Source: a virus
DNA: 28,441 nucleotides
Direction: 5' to 3' (one strand)
IMG/VR virus record: IMGVR_UViG_3300033273_000564
Coordinates: 1-28,441 of that record
Shown here piece after piece: positions 1 through 10,100 of this stretch (position 1 is the stretch's first letter; each line of letters starts with the position of its first letter). The translations under genes and the position numbers were made by a program. The notes under the pieces are model-generated. The model saw only the letters and a program-made list of their open reading frames with translations, had not been told where the DNA came from and searched no databases.

Positions 1-3000
1 ACTATGGTATTGTCGAGTGTTGTCTATTTGTTAATAACTTAAACATCGATCCACAATATATAATAGCCATTCCATCATCGTGTAATTATATTAACCTTAA
101 TACGGTATCTTTTAATTACGGAGGCGGGTACTCTTGTTTTAAGATTCTTGATCCTATCGATCCTACAACGACTAATTTACCTATAATACAAGAATATGAC
201 TATTGTCCATGGGTATCATCTCCATGTTCTGACGCATATGGTAGTGGTACAGGTGTATGTAATTGTAGATATACTTTCTACAAATTTAAACAATGTTGTA
301 ATTCCACCAACAGTATTGTAGTGTGTGTTAATAATGATTCACTATTTGAATCATTATCTCAAACCGAATTTTTACAAGGTCAAGGAACCTTTTTTATGGG
401 TGAATGTTACTATTTCTCAGGTTTACAAGTAGACATATTAGCAGAAAATGTCGAAGCTATTGAAATGAGTTTTGATTATCTAATCAATCCTTATACCAGT
501 GTAATAACACCTTCAGAGGGTAGTGTTTGTGATCTCCCACTTTGTGACTGCGGTGGCGGTGGCGGTGGTGGTGGTGATGATTATGAAACCTGGTTAATAA
601 GAAGATGCTGTCCGATGCCAGATGGTTCGATAAACACTCAAACAGAAATAATAAATGTTAACCCTTCATTAGTTTTAGCGGGAATGTCAATATTTACCAA
701 CATTTTTGGTGGTGGTGGTATTATAAACCCATTTAACTGTTGGTATTTCGAGTCACAGTTGGATTACGATGAAGATGTTAATTATTTTGATGTTGAAAAC
801 AATATCGGTGGTTTATTCACTTTTGGTTGTCAAGAATGTTATGATTGGACTGAACAAGGGGAAGATGTAGAATGTTATTCCACTTTTGCATATTCCGCTG
901 TTCCATGTTGTAATCCAAATAGTGATCCATTAATTTTTGATATTACTTATCTGGGTAATTTATCATACACATTTAATCAGTGGGTAGGATGGACAGTATT
1001 GTATAATAACGAGTGTTATAATATAACTGAGTTATTAATTGATTCTAGTTCATCGACAATACCACTCTATTTAAATGACGATCAAATTTTTAATAGTTCT
1101 TATGGTGAAGCCAATTGTAATGAGTGTACTAGTATATCTCAATATGCGTGTAATACGACACACTTCAGATCTTGTTCACCAGATGCCGCTTATTTTTATG
1201 AATTTGTAGTAATACAAAACGGTGTGGGACTGTTAAATAACTTTAATGTAGGTCAAACTTATCTATTCGATCAGGATGATCAAACTGGTGGTGGTGAAAT
1301 GATAGGTGTTTGTTATACTGGTATTGAATATACACCAAATACAACATATATACAGGTAATTTTAGAGGTTGACACGTATCCACAAACTTTGACGTGTGAT
1401 GATCCTGAATGTGGAACTATTCAAAGTGTCAGATTTATTAAATGTTGTAGTGAGTTTGACCAAGGAGCATATGTATATAACTATAATGTACCACCTAATA
1501 TACTTGCTCAATTTGAAATAGGTAATGCATTTGCAATTTCTACTCAACCAGGGGGTGTTATACAGGGTTGGTCCTTTTCAGCATCTACTATCTTACCTTT
1601 TGACCCAAATTTACCTAATTGGTATTTTGCAGAAGGAACATATCAAATATATGATAGTTGTTCTGATATACCAAACCCATTTACTTATCCTCTTTGTCCA
1701 TGGCCTAAAAATTATAGAATAAGGGCTTTCAGATGTTGTGATAGTGGAATAGAATGGAATGGTTTGACACCCCCAAATCCACTTTTCGCACCACAATATT
1801 TTGGAGATTATTGGCCAAATGCCATTTATTGGGCAACGGTAGCGTTTAATGAAAATTTTGCAATACCAACTGTTGGTGATGTTTTTGTATATAATGGAAA
1901 ATGTTTCAAAATAGAGTCGGCTGTACCAGTACCTGAATGGACAGATCTGGCATTTTTGACGATTAACGAGTGGTATAACGGTGGTGAAAATTATCCTGAA
2001 AACTGTCAAACATGTATAAACGATTTAGGTCCTTGTGGTGTAATAGACTGTAAACAAGATATTATTATAATCGTTCAAGATATTCAACTGTACTCTAACT
2101 ATCCTACTATTTGGCAAGATATTAAGAATGTAATCGTAGATATTATCGAGGGATTTAATCAAAATCTCTATGATGATGATGTAAGAATTGGGGTGTATAG
2201 AAATGGTGATTGTATTGAATTTGAGTCAGGATGGGTACATAACTTATCAAGTAATTTTGATGAGTTAATATCTGATGTTCAGTCCATGGAACAAATTTTT
2301 TACTCACAAGAACCTTCGTTAGGTAAGGCGTTAAATTACGCATATAATGAACTTTCTAATCCTGATAATTTCTTATCAGAGACTATTAAAACATTTATAT
2401 TGGTTGGTAGTAGAGAGTATCATGATTATAGTCAACCTCCTGGTGTGTATGATCCTTGTTTTGGTGGGTTACACTGTGATGTCATATTAGAACAGATGAA
2501 AAACGGTATTTGGGGAGGTAGTTATAATAATCCATTTGAGGTTAGAGTTTTTGGTATTAATGTTTGGAATTTTCTACTTATGGGTTCGTCAGACAATTTT
2601 TATAGTCCAAATATTGGTAATATTAGTCAGTTAACTACTTTAGTCTCGTCTACACAGTACGTCCCAGAATACTTTGTTCCAAATTTATGTCCCTTTAATT
2701 TATTTTTATTATGTTCTCAATTTGATCCTGGTTTATCGGGTAATACAGTTCAGGCCCAAGCTTGGGAAGATCAAGTATCTGGTTTCTTTATACAGAGATC
2801 TTGTTTTATTCCTGTTCTACCACCTACTTTTGATACTGTTAGAATGTTAATACCGTGTTGTCCTAATCTACCAATTATATATTCATTTGAACAAGAAAAT
2901 TTAGATTTTGAACCTCTTGTTGATGGTGTGTACTATAACGGTATTTGTTATAGAATTGGTGGTGAATTCTCATACTGGGTGTATAGCGGTAGTGTTGTAA

Positions 3001-6000
3001 CCACTATTTATCAAGATGAAATAGTTGAGAACATATGTGATGTTTGTGATTGTGGTCAAAATATAATCATGAGAGCTTGTTGTGACCATAGTATAAGTCA
3101 AATAGTTTATTTCGCAGGGTCTCAAGATGAATTAGTAATAGGTAGCGGATATATTATAAATGGTTTATGTTACACTTACAGTGGTGAAACAACTACAGAC
3201 CCTTATCAAAATGTAATTATTGGACTAAATCCAAATATTTGTGATAATAGTTTATGTGATTGTGGTGATGTAGTTTATTATTACCAAGTAAATTATAGTG
3301 GTTGTTGTGATGGATCAACTGGTGTAGAAACCGTAATTATACCTTCCGATCAGTTACCATTACAATTAAATGTGAGCACATACAACAATGGTTCTGGTTG
3401 TAGGGTAATCACTTCGTTTACTGAATTGACAGGTGCAACATATAATCCAGGAATTATCAATGATATTTACCAAGGTTGTGATGAATGTATAAATCAATCA
3501 CCATGTGAGATTGATGATTGTCAACAAGAAATTGTAATCCTTATGGATGCCACTACAAGTATTTCTTCTTCCGATTGGGAATTAGCCAAACAGGGGGTTA
3601 TAAACATTGCAACATCGTTGGAGTCGAATATGGATAACGACGAGGTAAGGATTGGTGTCATTCAGTGGTCAAACTGTGGATCTTCAGTAATTCAACAATT
3701 AACTTCGGATTATGATACTCTAGTAAACAATGTACAGTCATCAAACCAAGCTGGAGGTCTTACAGAATTAGGTTCGGCATTAAACACTGGTTATGGTATG
3801 TTGACTCAGAATTTTGATGCTAACTATGAAAAAAATATTGTGATCATCACTGACGGTCAGATATTTGATTTTGGATTAGGTAATGGATGTTATAATGATA
3901 TTCCAAGTGATCAAATGGCAGGATATATAAGTAGTGGTCAATATGGTGGTAATTATAATGTTTATATTTCGACTAAAATATTTGTTGTAGGTATAGGTGA
4001 TAATATACAATTCGAACAATTGAATACTTTAGCCAGTGACCCAGGATTGGTATTTTTATCAAACGGATTTAGTGATTTTGCCACTAATATTTCATTACAG
4101 ATAGCCGAACAAGTTTGTGAAGAAGAACCCCCTGTAAGTGATCCTCCTTGTTATTACAGAGGGGTACCATGTTGTACTACATATGGGTTATCTAATTTAA
4201 TAGTTTCTAGTGTTTGTACTGGTGTTACAATAGGTGCAGCATTTAACTATAACGGTTATTGTTATAAATTTACTGAAATAGTCCCTGAAACTTTAAGTGG
4301 TGATTCTGTAACATTTATACAAACTAATAGCACTGCATATAATCCAGGGGGTTGTACTGATTTCGTTTGTGATTGTGAGGGTTTAATGATAAAATTACAC
4401 AGCTGTTGTGGTGATGGTAGTTATATTACAGTTTTATTGTCAAATGCACTTAACGCCACTATTAATTCAGGACTAATCCATGAAGATGGTAAATGTTATG
4501 TTTATACAGGTGATACATCAACAGAATCACCAGTATATACTGTCGATAATTTATCTGGTAACATATGTTCTAATAGTTTGTGTGAAGAGTGTAATACTGA
4601 AGAAACTTGGAGATTCCTCAGTTGTTGTGGAACATATGATCCAATTATACGTAATGTAACAGAATCTGACAATATATCTTTAGGTACTGTTATTCAAATA
4701 ACTTATGATGGCGATGAAACATTGTATTGTTATAGTGCAACTACTCAGTTAACTTACGATGAAACCGCTATCAATCTGAGTAACTATAATTTTGAAATCT
4801 TTGATACTTGTGAAGAATGTTTAGGTGGTGATTGTCCAACACCTACACAGTCTAAAACTCCTACTCAGACACCAACTACAACTAATACCCCTGGACTATC
4901 ACCAACACAAACACCAACCAATACTGTTACCCCATCTCAAACAGTAACTAATACACCAACAAACACTCAGACACCAACGAATACCACTAGTAATACACAA
5001 ACACCTACACAGTCTAAAACTCCTACTCAGACACCAACAAACACACAAACAGTTTCAAAGACCCCAACACAAACCAGAACTCAAACCCCCACACCGACAA
5101 ATACTATAAGTCCAGGTACTACACAAACACAAACTAGAACCCAGACACCTACTCAGACACCAACAACTTCTCAAACGTCAAGTCAAACACCTACTAGTAC
5201 ACAAACACCTACTTTTACACCGACACCAACACAGAGTAAGACCCCTACACAAACTGTAACTCCAACACCGACACAAACACAAACTGTAACTCAAACATCT
5301 ACAAATACACCTACTAATTCCCAAACTAGAACTCAAACACCTACCACTACTAATACTAAAACACCTACTAGTACTCAAACACCTACAAATACACCTACAC
5401 AAACTAAAACATCAAGTCAGACACCTACTCAAACACCTACTCAGACATCAAGTCAAACTCCTACTAGTACTCAGACACCTACTTTTACACCGACACCGTC
5501 ACCATCAAAATCATCAGGTGCAAGTCAGACTCCCACAAAAAGTTTTACTCCGACACCGACTAAGACACCTACTAGTACACCTACTAATACACAGACACCA
5601 ACTAACACTCCTACTAATTCGATAACCCCAACACAATCTAAAACTCCAACATCTACAAAAACACCCACACAAACAACTACTAATTCTCAAACACCAACAA
5701 CAACTAAAACACCAACACAAACACCAACACCATCACAAACAAAAACACAGACACCTACTACTACAAATACTAAGACACCCACTCCGACATCAACACCAAC
5801 TAAGACACCTACACAAACACAGACGACTACACCAACACAAACACCAACACCATCACAAACAAAAACACAGACACCTACCAATACTCAAACTAAGACACCA
5901 ACACAAACAAAAACACCAACTAAAACACCTACTAGTACTCAAACACCAACGAATACTCCATCACATACCCCAACTAATTCACAAACTGCAACAATCTCAC

Positions 6001-6875
6001 ATACACCAAGTAGGACACAAACAAGAACTCCAGTAGAAACCCCAACACAAACACCATCAAATTCATTCACACCAACTCAGTCACAGTCTCCAACTAATTC
6101 ATTAACACCATCACAAACTAATACTCAGACTGCATCATACACTCCTTCAAATACACCTACAAATTCTATAACACCTAGTATAACGACATCACAAACTCCT
6201 TCACCAACAATAACACCTCAAGTAGACTACATAGTTGTAGCCATAGTCCATTGTTGTTCAGGAGTTGCTATGTTGTCATATGCAGATGCAAATGTTTTGA
6301 ATTCCTTGGAAGGTAATTTTGGATTACCTAATGGTGTGCAATTTATTGGTCTTACTGACCATCCAGATTTCCAACTTGAGCCTTGTTTTTATGTGTCTGA
6401 AATATTCGTTTGGTTTCCAATCCCTGACGAAAACTACATAAGTAATTTTGTTTATGGAGAATTCCTGGGTTCTGGTTGTGAAACATGTGTATCCATCAAC
6501 AACCAAATTGAATGTACTGAAGCCAACTTACCTGCAGCTGTAGATCCTAGATATCCAACTGCTGAATATTTTACTTCAGTAATTGCACAGTCTTGTTGTG
6601 ATGAAAATCTTCACCGTATTTTCCAAGTTTTAAGAATTGATCTTGAAACATTAGGTGATAATGCTGTAAGATCTATAGGTAGAAGTTCTAATCTAGAAGA
6701 CCAGACGTTCCCTTGTTTCCATATTGAAGTGGTAGTTGGAGAATTCTTACCAGGTAATAATGACATTATGACTAATTTTTACTTTGGACAATACAGTCCT
6801 TTTAGTAATAATTGTGAATGTTGTAATCAAAGTATAAAACTAATCGATTGTAACGGAAGTCAGTCCTTTTGTTAA
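1..6875 (+). CDS. Giant cysteine-rich virion/adhesin-like protein with two VWA domains and a TPT-repeat stalk (5' end missing)
   Basis: Codons run in frame from position 3 with no stop, so the gene starts upstream of the window; the GTG at 321 is internal, since CC modules lie before it. About 2290 residues are visible. From N to C there are repeated modules of roughly 60-90 residues, each with a CC pair, a later CY or CF, and a closing CxxC or CxC; an eight-glycine tract at 552-575; a VWA-like domain at about 2052-2690; more modules; a second VWA-like domain at about 3522-4110; more modules; a Thr/Pro/Gln/Ser repeat at 4836-6218; and two final CC modules. I count about 16 modules. The architecture suggests an extended, disulfide- or metal-stabilised surface fibre or adhesin. 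Its place upstream of the tail sheath gene supports a virion role. It shares a TTAA stop overlap with the convergent minus-strand gene. The exact function is unknown; a host-derived adhesin captured by the phage is the alternative. Confidence 0.8.
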   Translation, partial: YGIVECCLFVNNLNIDPQYIIAIPSSCNYINLNTVSFNYGGGYSCFKILDPIDPTTTNLPIIQEYDYCPWVSSPCSDAYGSGTGVCNCRYTFYKFKQCCNSTNSIVVCVNNDSLFESLSQTEFLQGQGTFFMGECYYFSGLQVDILAENVEAIEMSFDYLINPYTSVITPSEGSVCDLPLCDCGGGGGGGGDDYETWLIRRCCPMPDGSINTQTEIINVNPSLVLAGMSIFTNIFGGGGIINPFNCWYFESQLDYDEDVNYFDVENNIGGLFTFGCQECYDWTEQGEDVECYSTFAYSAVPCCNPNSDPLIFDITYLGNLSYTFNQWVGWTVLYNNECYNITELLIDSSSSTIPLYLNDDQIFNSSYGEANCNECTSISQYACNTTHFRSCSPDAAYFYEFVVIQNGVGLLNNFNVGQTYLFDQDDQTGGGEMIGVCYTGIEYTPNTTYIQVILEVDTYPQTLTCDDPECGTIQSVRFIKCCSEFDQGAYVYNYNVPPNILAQFEIGNAFAISTQPGGVIQGWSFSASTILPFDPNLPNWYFAEGTYQIYDSCSDIPNPFTYPLCPWPKNYRIRAFRCCDSGIEWNGLTPPNPLFAPQYFGDYWPNAIYWATVAFNENFAIPTVGDVFVYNGKCFKIESAVPVPEWTDLAFLTINEWYNGGENYPENCQTCINDLGPCGVIDCKQDIIIIVQDIQLYSNYPTIWQDIKNVIVDIIEGFNQNLYDDDVRIGVYRNGDCIEFESGWVHNLSSNFDELISDVQSMEQIFYSQEPSLGKALNYAYNELSNPDNFLSETIKTFILVGSREYHDYSQPPGVYDPCFGGLHCDVILEQMKNGIWGGSYNNPFEVRVFGINVWNFLLMGSSDNFYSPNIGNISQLTTLVSSTQYVPEYFVPNLCPFNLFLLCSQFDPGLSGNTVQAQAWEDQVSGFFIQRSCFIPVLPPTFDTVRMLIPCCPNLPIIYSFEQENLDFEPLVDGVYYNGICYRIGGEFSYWVYSGSVVTTIYQDEIVENICDVCDCGQNIIMRACCDHSISQIVYFAGSQDELVIGSGYIINGLCYTYSGETTTDPYQNVIIGLNPNICDNSLCDCGDVVYYYQVNYSGCCDGSTGVETVIIPSDQLPLQLNVSTYNNGSGCRVITSFTELTGATYNPGIINDIYQGCDECINQSPCEIDDCQQEIVILMDATTSISSSDWELAKQGVINIATSLESNMDNDEVRIGVIQWSNCGSSVIQQLTSDYDTLVNNVQSSNQAGGLTELGSALNTGYGMLTQNFDANYEKNIVIITDGQIFDFGLGNGCYNDIPSDQMAGYISSGQYGGNYNVYISTKIFVVGIGDNIQFEQLNTLASDPGLVFLSNGFSDFATNISLQIAEQVCEEEPPVSDPPCYYRGVPCCTTYGLSNLIVSSVCTGVTIGAAFNYNGYCYKFTEIVPETLSGDSVTFIQTNSTAYNPGGCTDFVCDCEGLMIKLHSCCGDGSYITVLLSNALNATINSGLIHEDGKCYVYTGDTSTESPVYTVDNLSGNICSNSLCEECNTEETWRFLSCCGTYDPIIRNVTESDNISLGTVIQITYDGDETLYCYSATTQLTYDETAINLSNYNFEIFDTCEECLGGDCPTPTQSKTPTQTPTTTNTPGLSPTQTPTNTVTPSQTVTNTPTNTQTPTNTTSNTQTPTQSKTPTQTPTNTQTVSKTPTQTRTQTPTPTNTISPGTTQTQTRTQTPTQTPTTSQTSSQTPTSTQTPTFTPTPTQSKTPTQTVTPTPTQTQTVTQTSTNTPTNSQTRTQTPTTTNTKTPTSTQTPTNTPTQTKTSSQTPTQTPTQTSSQTPTSTQTPTFTPTPSPSKSSGASQTPTKSFTPTPTKTPTSTPTNTQTPTNTPTNSITPTQSKTPTSTKTPTQTTTNSQTPTTTKTPTQTPTPSQTKTQTPTTTNTKTPTPTSTPTKTPTQTQTTTPTQTPTPSQTKTQTPTNTQTKTPTQTKTPTKTPTSTQTPTNTPSHTPTNSQTATISHTPSRTQTRTPVETPTQTPSNSFTPTQSQSPTNSLTPSQTNTQTASYTPSNTPTNSITPSITTSQTPSPTITPQVDYIVVAIVHCCSGVAMLSYADANVLNSLEGNFGLPNGVQFIGLTDHPDFQLEPCFYVSEIFVWFPIPDENYISNFVYGEFLGSGCETCVSINNQIECTEANLPAAVDPRYPTAEYFTSVIAQSCCDENLHRIFQVLRIDLETLGDNAVRSIGRSSNLEDQTFPCFHIEVVVGEFLPGNNDIMTNFYFGQYSPFSNNCECCNQSIKLIDCNGSQSFC
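2052..2690 (+). other. VWA-like domain 1, degenerate metal site
   Basis: The segment begins with a hydrophobic strand (IIIIVQD) after a CxxC / PC / DC linker and keeps the VWA pattern, including the DDDVRIGVYRNGDC stretch that matches DNDEVRIGVIQWSNCG in domain 2. The metal-ion-dependent adhesion site is not intact: DIQLY (2079-2093) stands where DxSxS is expected, and GSREY stands where TDG is expected. It probably binds no metal in the usual way. The assignment rests on similarity to domain 2 and family knowledge. Confidence 0.65.
3522..4110 (+). other. VWA-like domain 2, near-canonical metal site
   Basis: The strand EIVILMD leads into DATTS at 3546-3560, a DxTxS variant of the MIDAS motif. 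The conserved Thr follows in GGLTELGSAL (codon at 3762), and the third motif, ITDG, has its Asp codon at 3852. All three MIDAS elements are therefore present in the expected order. VWA domains usually mediate metal-dependent protein adhesion. The linker before it (CxxC, PC, DDC, QQE) repeats the linker before domain 1, indicating an internal duplication. Confidence 0.8.
4836..6218 (+). repeat. Thr-Pro-Gln/Ser low-complexity repeat (TPTxTxTPT), 461 residues
   Basis: The coding strand is a degenerate array of ACACCTACT-, CAAACACCA- and AATACACCT-like units encoding TPTQT, TPTNT, TPTKT and SQTPT steps. It contains no cysteine and almost no hydrophobic residues, so it should form an extended rod, possibly O-glycosylated if the host allows. 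Several segments are exact longer repeats, for example 4838-4876 with 5000-5038 and 5709-5758 with 5829-5878. It separates the VWA/cysteine part from the two C-terminal cysteine modules. Confidence 0.95.
5709..5878 (+). repeat. 50-nt exact direct repeat pair, offset 120 nt
   Basis: Bases 5709-5758 are identical to 5829-5878, and the offset of exactly 120 nt (40 codons) keeps the reading frame. Elsewhere in the array third positions vary freely, so this identity points to a recent slippage or recombination event. Confidence 0.9.
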
Positions 6876-7030
6876 TCAATTATATCACCATATATATCCC
6901 TTTTTACTTCACAGTTATCTATAATTAGTTTTTCTAGAAATTTATAAATTTTCAATCCGTTTTTATCACAATGGTTTTTAAGTACCCTATGAACGTTTTT
7001 TGATATTTTAATGTTCTTAATCTCTTTCAT
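6872..7030 (-). CDS. Small ribbon-helix-helix-like protein, antisense to the late genes
   Basis: Reading the minus strand from ATG at 7030-7028 gives 52 residues. The start is MKEIKNIKISKNVHRVL, followed by NHCDKNGLKIYKFLEKLI. This is the usual pattern of a short beta strand (IKISK), helix, turn (NG) and amphipathic helix seen in Arc/MetJ-type ribbon-helix-helix DNA-binding proteins, so a small repressor or antitoxin-like role is inferred. The in-frame stop upstream at 7061-7063 leaves this ATG as the natural start. No clear Shine-Dalgarno site precedes it. Its TAA stop shares the palindrome TTAA with the stop of the convergent giant gene. It is the only minus-strand gene I can support in the window. 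It carries no toxin partner here, so an antitoxin role is not favoured. Confidence 0.62.
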   Translation of the reverse strand: MKEIKNIKISKNVHRVLKNHCDKNGLKIYKFLEKLIIDNCEVKRDIYGDIID

Positions 7031-7155: not shown

Positions 7156-10100
7156 ATGGCGACATCGAACAAAGTATTTGTTTCACCGGGTGTTTATACA
7201 TCAGAGAGAGATTTAACATTTGTAGCTCAAAGTGTTGGGGTTACAACATTAGGTATTGTGGGAGAAACCTTATCTGGTCCCGCTTTCGAACCTATTTTTA
7301 TCACTAATTTTGACGAATTTACTTCATATTTTGGAGGAACTAGTCCTGACAAATTTGTTAATACACAGATACCAAAATATGAAGCCGCATACATCGCAAA
7401 ATCATATTTATCACAATCAAATCAATTATTTGTAACTAGAGTATTAGGATTATCAGGTTTTGATGCTGGACCATCATTCTCAATAAAAACCATAGGTAAT
7501 GTTTCTGGTAATACTATTGAGTATGAATCAAATTCGGCGGCGCAAACTTTTGGTTTTACCGCAACATCTGGTAACACCAGTGCACCACAAATTGTTTCGA
7601 CAAATAATTTACCTGAAAGATTAGAGGCAGTATTTGATAGAACATTTACTAAATCTGACGGTAGTACATCGACGATGAGAGATGAGTTTATTTCCATCTT
7701 AGAAGATGAAGTTTTATTATATGACGATAATAGTATCGGACGGACTGTTTACGTTTTTGGTACTATGTCATCAACAACATACAGTAACCTTTACTCAACA
7801 ACTGGGGTTAATGGATCATCTACTGGTTACACTAACGTATTAAATACATCATCAAATATCGATACAACCGCTGATTTCGATAGTAGATCAAATGAGACTT
7901 GGTACTATTCATTGTTTAACATGAATGGTGATGAAACAGAATACGAAGGTATTTCTTTTGGTTTTAAAGTAACCACCTACACTCTATCAGATACTGAGGT
8001 TACTGGTGAGTGTACACTATATTTCAATAATCAAAAAGCAGATCCTATCGATGAATATCACCAAATGGTTGTTGGTACTCTAAGATCGAGAGGTAAGGTA
8101 ACATACTCTACTGACAATGAACAGGTTTATGAAGTAAGTGGAAAATCTGAATCAATAATTGTTACTACAGGTAATTATTCAGGTGTCACTAAAGATCCTT
8201 TTGGTACTTTCCAAATTTCGGGAGCAACAATATCAGGTACAGATTTTAAATTTGATACTTCATTCACAGTAAGTAATAAAAATTATTTAGGTAAAGTTTT
8301 TGGTAGAAGTAACTTTGGTAAGTCTAGAACTGACGTACCACTATTTTTGGAAGAAAATTACACAAATTTACTTACTCTTGGATATAGAGAGGGTAAAATA
8401 CGTGGTTTAAGTCAAAACTTATACAAAACAAATAAAGCTAGTAGTACCGATACAGATAGTTTAGGTTGGTACTTAGATCGTTATCAGACACCAAAAACAC
8501 CATACTTAGTTTCAGAACTTAGAGGTACTGATGTTGTTGATCTATTTAGATTTATTTTGATAAGTGACGGAAATTCGGCAAATAGAGAAGTTAAGATCTC
8601 AATCGCTAACATTTCTTTTAGTAATTCTAATTTTGATGTTATCGTTAGAGACTTTTATGATACTGATGCAAATCCAGTCGTTTTAGAAAAATTCACTAAT
8701 TGTGGTTTGGATCCAGAACTTAACAATTATGTAGCTAAAAAAATCGGAACTTCTAGTGGTGAGTTTGAGCTAAAGTCAAAGTTTATTATGATAGAGATGT
8801 CTGAGGACGCGCCTAAAGACGCGTTACCTTGTGGATTTAGAGGTTATAATACTAGACAATATGGTACAAATAAATCAGCATCATTAGTTTATAAAACAAA
8901 ATATTTAGAACCTGGTGAAACCGTATATACACCACCATTCGGTACTGCAGTGATTAGTAATGGTGATAAAGTTAGAAGAACTTACTTAGGTGTTTCTAAT
9001 ACCGTTGGTATTGACGGGGATTTCTTGAGTTATAAAGGAAAACAAAATCCAACTAACTTAGGTGAGACTCTAGAAGCTAGTGATTGGGCATATTTAACTA
9101 AAGGATTCCACATGGATTCTGGTGCTACGGTCGTAAAAATCTCTAATACTTACCCACTATCAGGACAATCACAATTTGAGGTGGGTGTAACTTCATTCCA
9201 GTCAGATCCTACAGATAGTGAAAATGCATACTACAAGTTAAATTCTAGGAAATTCACATTAGTACCTTCAGGTGGTTTCGATGGATGGGACATCTATCGT
9301 GAGTACAGAACTAATGGTGATACGTTCCAATTAGGTAGTACTGGTTTCTTAAGAGGTCATGTATCTAATACTCAATTCCCTAATGGTACTGGATGGGGAC
9401 AATTTAAACCAATTTCAGGTCCAGATAAAGAAAACTGGGCAAACACTGACTACTACGCATACTTATGGGGTCAATCAACATTCTCAAATCCTGAAAGTGT
9501 GAATATTAATATCTTTAACACACCAGGTATCGATTATGTTAATAATTCAAATCTTGTAGAATCGGCTATCGAAATGGTTGAAATAGACAGAGCAGACTCA
9601 ATATATATCTGTACTACACCTGACTATAATATGTTTGTACCTACAACTAATGATTTTACAACGAATTTTATTTATCCAGAAGAGGCAGTAGATAATCTCG
9701 AAGAGACTGATATTGATTCAAACTACACTGCTACTTACTACCCATGGATTCAAGTTAGAGATTCGGCAAACAATACTCAAATTAATATACCACCTACTTC
9801 TGAGGTTGTTAGAAACTTAGCATTAACAGATAATATTGCATTCCCTTGGTTCGCATCAGCGGGTTACACGAGAGGTTTAGTAAATGCGGTTAAAGCTAGA
9901 AAGAAATTAACTCAAGAAGATAGAGATATATTGTATAAAGGTAGGCTTAACCCAATCGCAACATTCTCCGATGTGGGAACTGTAATTTGGGGTAATAAAA
10001 CTTTACAAGTTAAGGAGTCTGCTCTAGATAGAATTAACGTTAGAAGACTTCTACTACAAGCACGTAAATTAATTTCGTCAGTAGCGGTAAGATTATTGTT

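Follow-up and report, generated by a model that had tools for sequence, protein, structure and literature searches.

A recurrent six-cysteine module in giant genes of related, uncultured phages: a probable building block of a disulfide-linked virion fibre

Von Willebrand factor (vWF) and other animal extracellular proteins with VWA domains carry strings of disulfide-rich modules around these domains, along with mucin-like stretches. Since the cytoplasm in which phage proteins fold is reducing, dense conserved disulfides are unexpected in them. In Bacillus phage 0305phi8-36, a VWA domain is reported in gp164, a protein encoded in the fibre/baseplate region (PMC2147016). The paper names neither cysteine nor disulfide, and the sections considered report neither Cys modules nor a Thr/Pro stalk.

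Herein, we describe a giant phage gene in which all of these elements appear to be combined. It opens a stretch of 28,441 bases (hereafter, the window), which comprises the entire IMG/VR record IMGVR_UViG_3300033273_000564 and is itself a virus fragment.

The giant gene, its neighbours and its relatives

Pfam and PHROG profiles identified, downstream of the giant ORF and in order, genes for a tail sheath, a tail tube and a T4-type baseplate protein, with a gene for a gp32-like single-strand DNA binding protein at the far end of the window (Table 1). Such an arrangement indicates that the window comes from a T4-like phage with a contractile tail, an uncultured virus of bacteria; the phage origin proposed from the bare letters in an earlier note is thus borne out. 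Scans of bacterial and archaeal genomes for the sheath and the fibre gave no match, so that no host could be named from that side. The sheath protein, at 1060 aa, exceeds the typical sheath length, and Pfam and PHROG sheath profiles cover mainly its last third. The 52-aa ORF preceding it on the opposite strand resembles, by eye, a ribbon-helix-helix regulator.

The visible part of the giant protein contains 104 cysteines, i.e. 4.5% of its residues, or 5.7% when the Cys-free Thr/Pro linker is set aside, while the products of the other ten window genes contain 0-0.8%; the density of 4-5% in places that had first drawn attention to this gene is therefore real. Vicinal CC motifs occur 15 times, against a mean of 5.5 and a maximum of 13 in 5,000 shuffles of the Cys-containing part. 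Most of the protein is built from modules of ~70-105 aa, arranged in the order M01-M07, VWA1, M08-M10, VWA2, M11-M13, a Thr/Pro/Gln/Ser linker and M14-M15.

Table 1. Features of the window, with coordinates, strand and the evidence for each
Feature	Coordinates	Strand	Basis
Giant Cys-rich protein built of modules, 2290 aa within the window, 5' end beyond it	3..6875	+	ORF; full-length relative L003 389-8533
M01, divergent, 8 Cys	3..266	+	profile, alignment
M02	273..551	+	profile, alignment
M03	582..875	+	profile, alignment
M04	885..1151	+	profile, alignment
M05, four Cys, without C2 and C6	1152..1421	+	profile, alignment
M06, four Cys, without C3 and C5	1422..1697	+	profile, alignment
M07	1713..2036	+	profile, alignment
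VWA domain 1, MIDAS residues lost	2049..2564	+	27% identical to VWA2, E 5e-17
M08	2835..3053	+	profile, alignment
M09	3057..3263	+	profile, alignment
M10	3279..3506	+	profile, alignment
VWA domain 2, MIDAS motif present	3531..4073	+	PF00092 E 1.7e-21; motif read from sequence
M11	4149..4376	+	profile, alignment; part of tandem model
M12	4383..4592	+	profile, alignment; part of tandem model
M13, used for single-module model	4602..4835	+	profile, alignment, AlphaFold2
Thr/Pro/Gln/Ser linker, 463 aa (about aa 1612-2074)	4836..6224	+	composition; tandem DNA repeats
M14	6228..6515	+	profile, alignment
M15	6570..6851	+	profile, alignment
52-aa ORF MKEIKNIKISKNVHRVLKNHCDKNGLKIYKFLEKLIIDNCEVKRDIYGDIID	6872-7030	-	between giant gene and sheath gene
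Tail sheath protein	7156..10338	+	PF17482; phrog_23 E 2e-54
Tail tube gp19	11476..11964	+	phrog_4542 E 4.5e-29
T4-type baseplate protein	12018..12782	+	PF12322 E 2.7e-7

PF00092 matched two stretches of the giant ORF with 77.6 bits (curated cut-off 23.8). In VWA2, the MIDAS signature DxSxS...T...D can be read as DATTS, the T in GGLTELG, and TDG; VWA1 is evidently a degenerate copy of this domain. Threonine makes up 197 residues (43%) of the linker and proline another 80, and the DNA encoding it consists of imperfect short tandem repeats of 6 to 120 bp. It is markedly different from the linker of a full-length relative (L003), which is 72% identical over the giant gene region; thus, the linker evolves fast.

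In L003, the whole gene encodes a protein of 2713 aa that starts with MSFYRLVRTEACC and comprises 21 modules, including six extra ones at the N-terminus. In the window gene, the corresponding six modules are most likely missing, cut off at the window edge. As a query, the window sheath brings up hundreds of relatives. Among those examined, the majority lack a giant Cys-rich gene in this position and instead carry a 350-aa gene directly 5' of the sheath gene, which implies that the giant gene is an insertion. Within the phage group, the module profile nevertheless matches further giant ORFs: five in a 105-kb record (1821, 3752, 1961, 2894 and 2574 aa), two in a second record (2902 and 1007 aa) and four in a third (5725, 2344, 1923 and 3441 aa). 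As a rule, these ORFs have Thr/Pro linkers, and several have VWA domains. In L107, L110 and L125/L126, module ORFs adjoin genes lying 3' of gp25-like and gp6-like baseplate genes, names which come from sequence reading with no profile match.

The module protein of L107 contains SprB repeats (PF13573), a hint at Bacteroidota hosts. Outside its modules, aa 1723-2075 of this protein are 46-49% identical, over that stretch alone, to nine other phage loci, mostly from records with no detected Cys module. Several module or Thr/Pro ORFs (L105 18116-19999, L174 1-5682, L175 1-1152) open, by eye, with a Hint-like N-terminus of the intein/hedgehog type, GxKVGQKVLLxDG; Pfam gave no match to the start of the L105 ORF.

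Overall, we favour the view, which as a whole seems fairly likely to us, that the gene encodes a giant disulfide-linked fibre or adhesin on the virion surface of a T4-like phage; its location on the virion is suggested by the gene neighbourhood. One might instead suppose that the protein is off the virion and that lysis sets it free, as a decoy, a toxin-like factor or an adhesin, either soluble or on the host surface, since its VWA and Thr/Pro-rich build resembles bacterial adhesins and the L107 protein has SprB repeats. However, the full-length L003 protein has no signal peptide, as judged by eye from its sequence, and the gene adjoins the sheath gene in the window and baseplate-region genes in relatives, so that we regard a released factor as rather unlikely.

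Six cysteines lost in pairs

The route proposed in the earlier note, i.e. cutting out the modules, aligning them and building a profile, was followed with hand-cut modules of the giant ORF, and the repeat held, with sequence matches also in the giant ORFs of relatives. The profile finds exactly 15 non-overlapping copies in the window ORF, and the count of at least 16 was therefore too high. Leave-one-out profiles recovered all but two of the 15 at E <= 1e-3, the exceptions being M05 (4e-3) and M01 (0.05). The recurring CC, CY/CF and CxxC elements were likewise real, but the description of the module by five cysteines had to be discarded, as it overlooked a sixth conserved one that is present in each normal module. 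Many copies read as C1C2...C3[YFW]...C4xxC5...C6, where C6 lies 2-12 residues past C5 and often directly ahead of a Thr/Pro linker.

The way in which these cysteines disappear bears on their role. All six are retained in 69 of 94 hand-curated modules, from which orthologous modules of the 72% relative had been excluded; the remainder have lost C2 and C6 (16 modules), C1 and C4 (5), C3 and C5 (2) or a single cysteine (2). Loss of C1 was told from loss of C2 by the flanking residues (LIRR-C-ND vs LIRR-CC-PM; LSG-V-C-GE vs LSG-CC-DN). With six sites, 15 pairings can be drawn; C1-C4/C2-C6/C3-C5 is the best of them and agrees with 92 of the 94 modules, all with an even number of cysteines, and the next best fits 85, while randomly dealt losses fit 57 on average and 69 at most (20,000 shuffles); the modules share ancestry, so the losses are non-independent, and curation was by hand. 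Another 66 anchored modules, taken from uncurated ORFs, agreed in the main and showed the same loss classes, with six cysteines in 32 modules and four in 15; this second set is only partly independent because several of its ORFs (L172, L173) correspond to curated ones. The whole CC is absent, with C4 and C6 retained, from modules at aa ~907 and ~2341 of L104 and aa ~2048 of L107, as well as from their orthologues; these break the strict pairing, although their cysteine count is still even. Some modules also have extra, odd cysteines.

Three separate pairwise losses point to disulfides and not to a four-ligand metal site; most likely, each module contains three, C1-C4, C2-C6 and C3-C5. The cysteines might alternatively bind zinc or iron, making the modules small metal-stabilised cytoplasmic domains, and indeed the CxxC pairs resemble zinc knuckles and single modules weakly match PHD, Zn-ribbon and rubredoxin models (E 0.005-0.07). 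However, each such model matches one or two of 82 modules, and four ligands of a zinc-type site should be kept or lost together, failing wholesale, whereas here pairs vanish while the other four cysteines remain. We therefore consider metal binding improbable, and between the two roles first suggested for these cysteines, metal binding or oxidation after lysis, oxidation is the better supported one, and it would take place after lysis.

In one relative, a 630-aa protease-like ORF (phrog_20754; L004 7823-9715) separates a giant module gene from the gene for the sheath, and carries an inserted thioredoxin/TlpA-like domain with WCGPC; in this single case, the domain may aid folding. Twelve records yielded no sulfhydryl oxidase, apart from one sub-threshold match to Evr1/ALR. 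The least credible alternative is that, during infection, the modules remain in the reduced state and function as a sensor of redox conditions or a reserve of thiols, served by a dedicated phage thioredoxin such as this WCGPC domain, as the domain occurs in one record only and the paired losses indicate structural disulfides.

Fold of the module and a linked GlcNAc-transferase

Searches of Pfam, NCBIfam and PHROGs with 82 modules returned scattered single matches only, and thus no family with an assigned function. Zinc-domain profiles reached E 0.005 at best, with no family matching more than two members; extracellular Cys-rich Pfam domains (VWC, VWD, TIL, EGF and others) gave nothing at E <= 0.1, and a sequence search of the PDB nothing below E 0.09. 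A match to chitodextrinase 9x9r (E 0.099) was judged to be due to chance. Nor did tblastn find a match to the giant protein among 50,697 phages, and a relative's ORF richest in modules likewise gave no phage match. For the L107 ORF, the single match was a 642-kb uncultured phage, in which the module profile finds no module. Hence, annotated families, PDB sequences and phage records of the searched collections yielded no instance of the module.

The structure of a single module was predicted with confidence: the AlphaFold2 model of M13, from 82 aligned modules, has a pLDDT of 94 and a pTM of 0.82, and consists of five strands plus a short helix at the C-terminus. No clear match to it was found in the PDB (lowest Foldseek E, 0.15; highest VIA Z, 5.6, below 8). 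It weakly resembles the DNA-binding domain (3'BD) of PriA, ribosomal bL33 and tudor/SH3-like barrels (Z 5.6 at best), a likeness that may reflect, at most, a common small-barrel arrangement. The best hit in BFVD was A0A516LRQ9 (E 0.03, TM 0.62). The tandem model of M11-M12, from nine sequences, is less certain (pLDDT 77, pTM 0.51). The suggestion that the fold may be undescribed therefore stands, in the sense that the modelled module has no clear known relative in the libraries searched, which is not proof of a new fold.

A recurrent neighbour of these genes belongs to PF11397, the Skp1-type polypeptide GlcNAc-transferase family, which includes enzymes that add GlcNAc to cytoplasmic proteins. 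In relatives, it is detected with 233 bits against a cut-off of 21, and six records have it clustered with module or Thr/Pro-rich ORFs, in four of them within 90 bp: 57 bp after the 2894-aa ORF (G002), 61 bp ahead of a module ORF (G020), 89 bp from the 2344-aa ORF (G027) and 42 bp from a Thr/Pro ORF (G023). In G026 and G030, it is clustered with other sugar-modifying genes. Record length confounds the co-occurrence of transferase and module, so the bare association was not used. Clusters of sugar-modifying genes (PF11397, other glycosyltransferases, methyltransferase-like ORFs) are seen in the fibre region of relatives at L105 15058-18066, L172 1-1922, L175 1221-8324 and L125 13957-15956. The jumbo phages XacN1, CM1 and RAS14 carry PF11397 too, and no fibre gene is annotated near the XacN1 copy. 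We suggest that, in relatives carrying PF11397, the Thr/Pro stalks are probably sugar-modified by the phage's own enzyme. No such transferase was seen in the 28 kb fragment that forms the window record, and the window protein is perhaps O-glycosylated as well.

A possible way of working and comparison with known systems

If the protein is indeed a virion fibre, the appendage would line up about 21 small beta domains, bead after bead, each with three disulfides; the beads would serve as rigid spacers between the VWA domains, VWA2 as a metal-dependent ligand binder, and the Thr/Pro stalk as a long, flexible, mucin-like tether, perhaps coated with sugar. Lacking a signal peptide, the protein would be made reduced in the cytoplasm, where the GlcNAc-transferase of relatives with PF11397 would modify the stalks, and would then be assembled onto the particle in this state; lysis would expose its thiols to oxygen, turning it into an oxidised, hard and protease-resistant form. 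It is tempting to go further and to picture a coat like an extracellular matrix, i.e. three-disulfide beads on mucin-like Thr stalks that bear O-GlcNAc from the phage's own transferase, soft while reduced and made rigid by lysis; this fuller picture we offer only tentatively.

What makes the case important is that one module family bears dense conserved cysteines in many giant genes of these uncultured phages, and that their paired loss supplies a bond map that can be tested even where no structure is available. If our reading is true, phages let proteins mature through oxidation when the cell lyses, and they possess a small scaffold that is locked by disulfides and able to evolve. With the linked GlcNAc-transferase, glycosylation of the Thr/Pro stalks on the virion becomes directly testable; were it confirmed, an undescribed disulfide domain would be joined to phage-encoded glycosylation of the mucin type.

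Among animal proteins, vWF offers the closest parallel: Cys 1173 and 1372 of the window protein flank VWA2, as cysteines flank the A1 and A3 domains of vWF. The two may work alike, whereas Pfam reports no sequence link between the Cys module and VWC, VWD or TIL. SprB-type gliding adhesins of Bacteroidota share their repeats with the L107 module protein, but the window protein, the product of a phage gene, has none. In the literature searched, we found no description of a three-disulfide module with a bond map from paired losses and a link to a GlcNAc-transferase. The nearest phage counterpart is gp164 of 0305phi8-36, a large virion-associated protein with a VWA domain, encoded in the fibre/baseplate gene region; the window protein shares the VWA domain and the kind of gene neighbourhood, and is probably virion-associated too. 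Thus, a VWA protein of the phage fibre/baseplate region was already known, while the recurring module with its three predicted disulfides and the link to a GlcNAc-transferase appear to be new.
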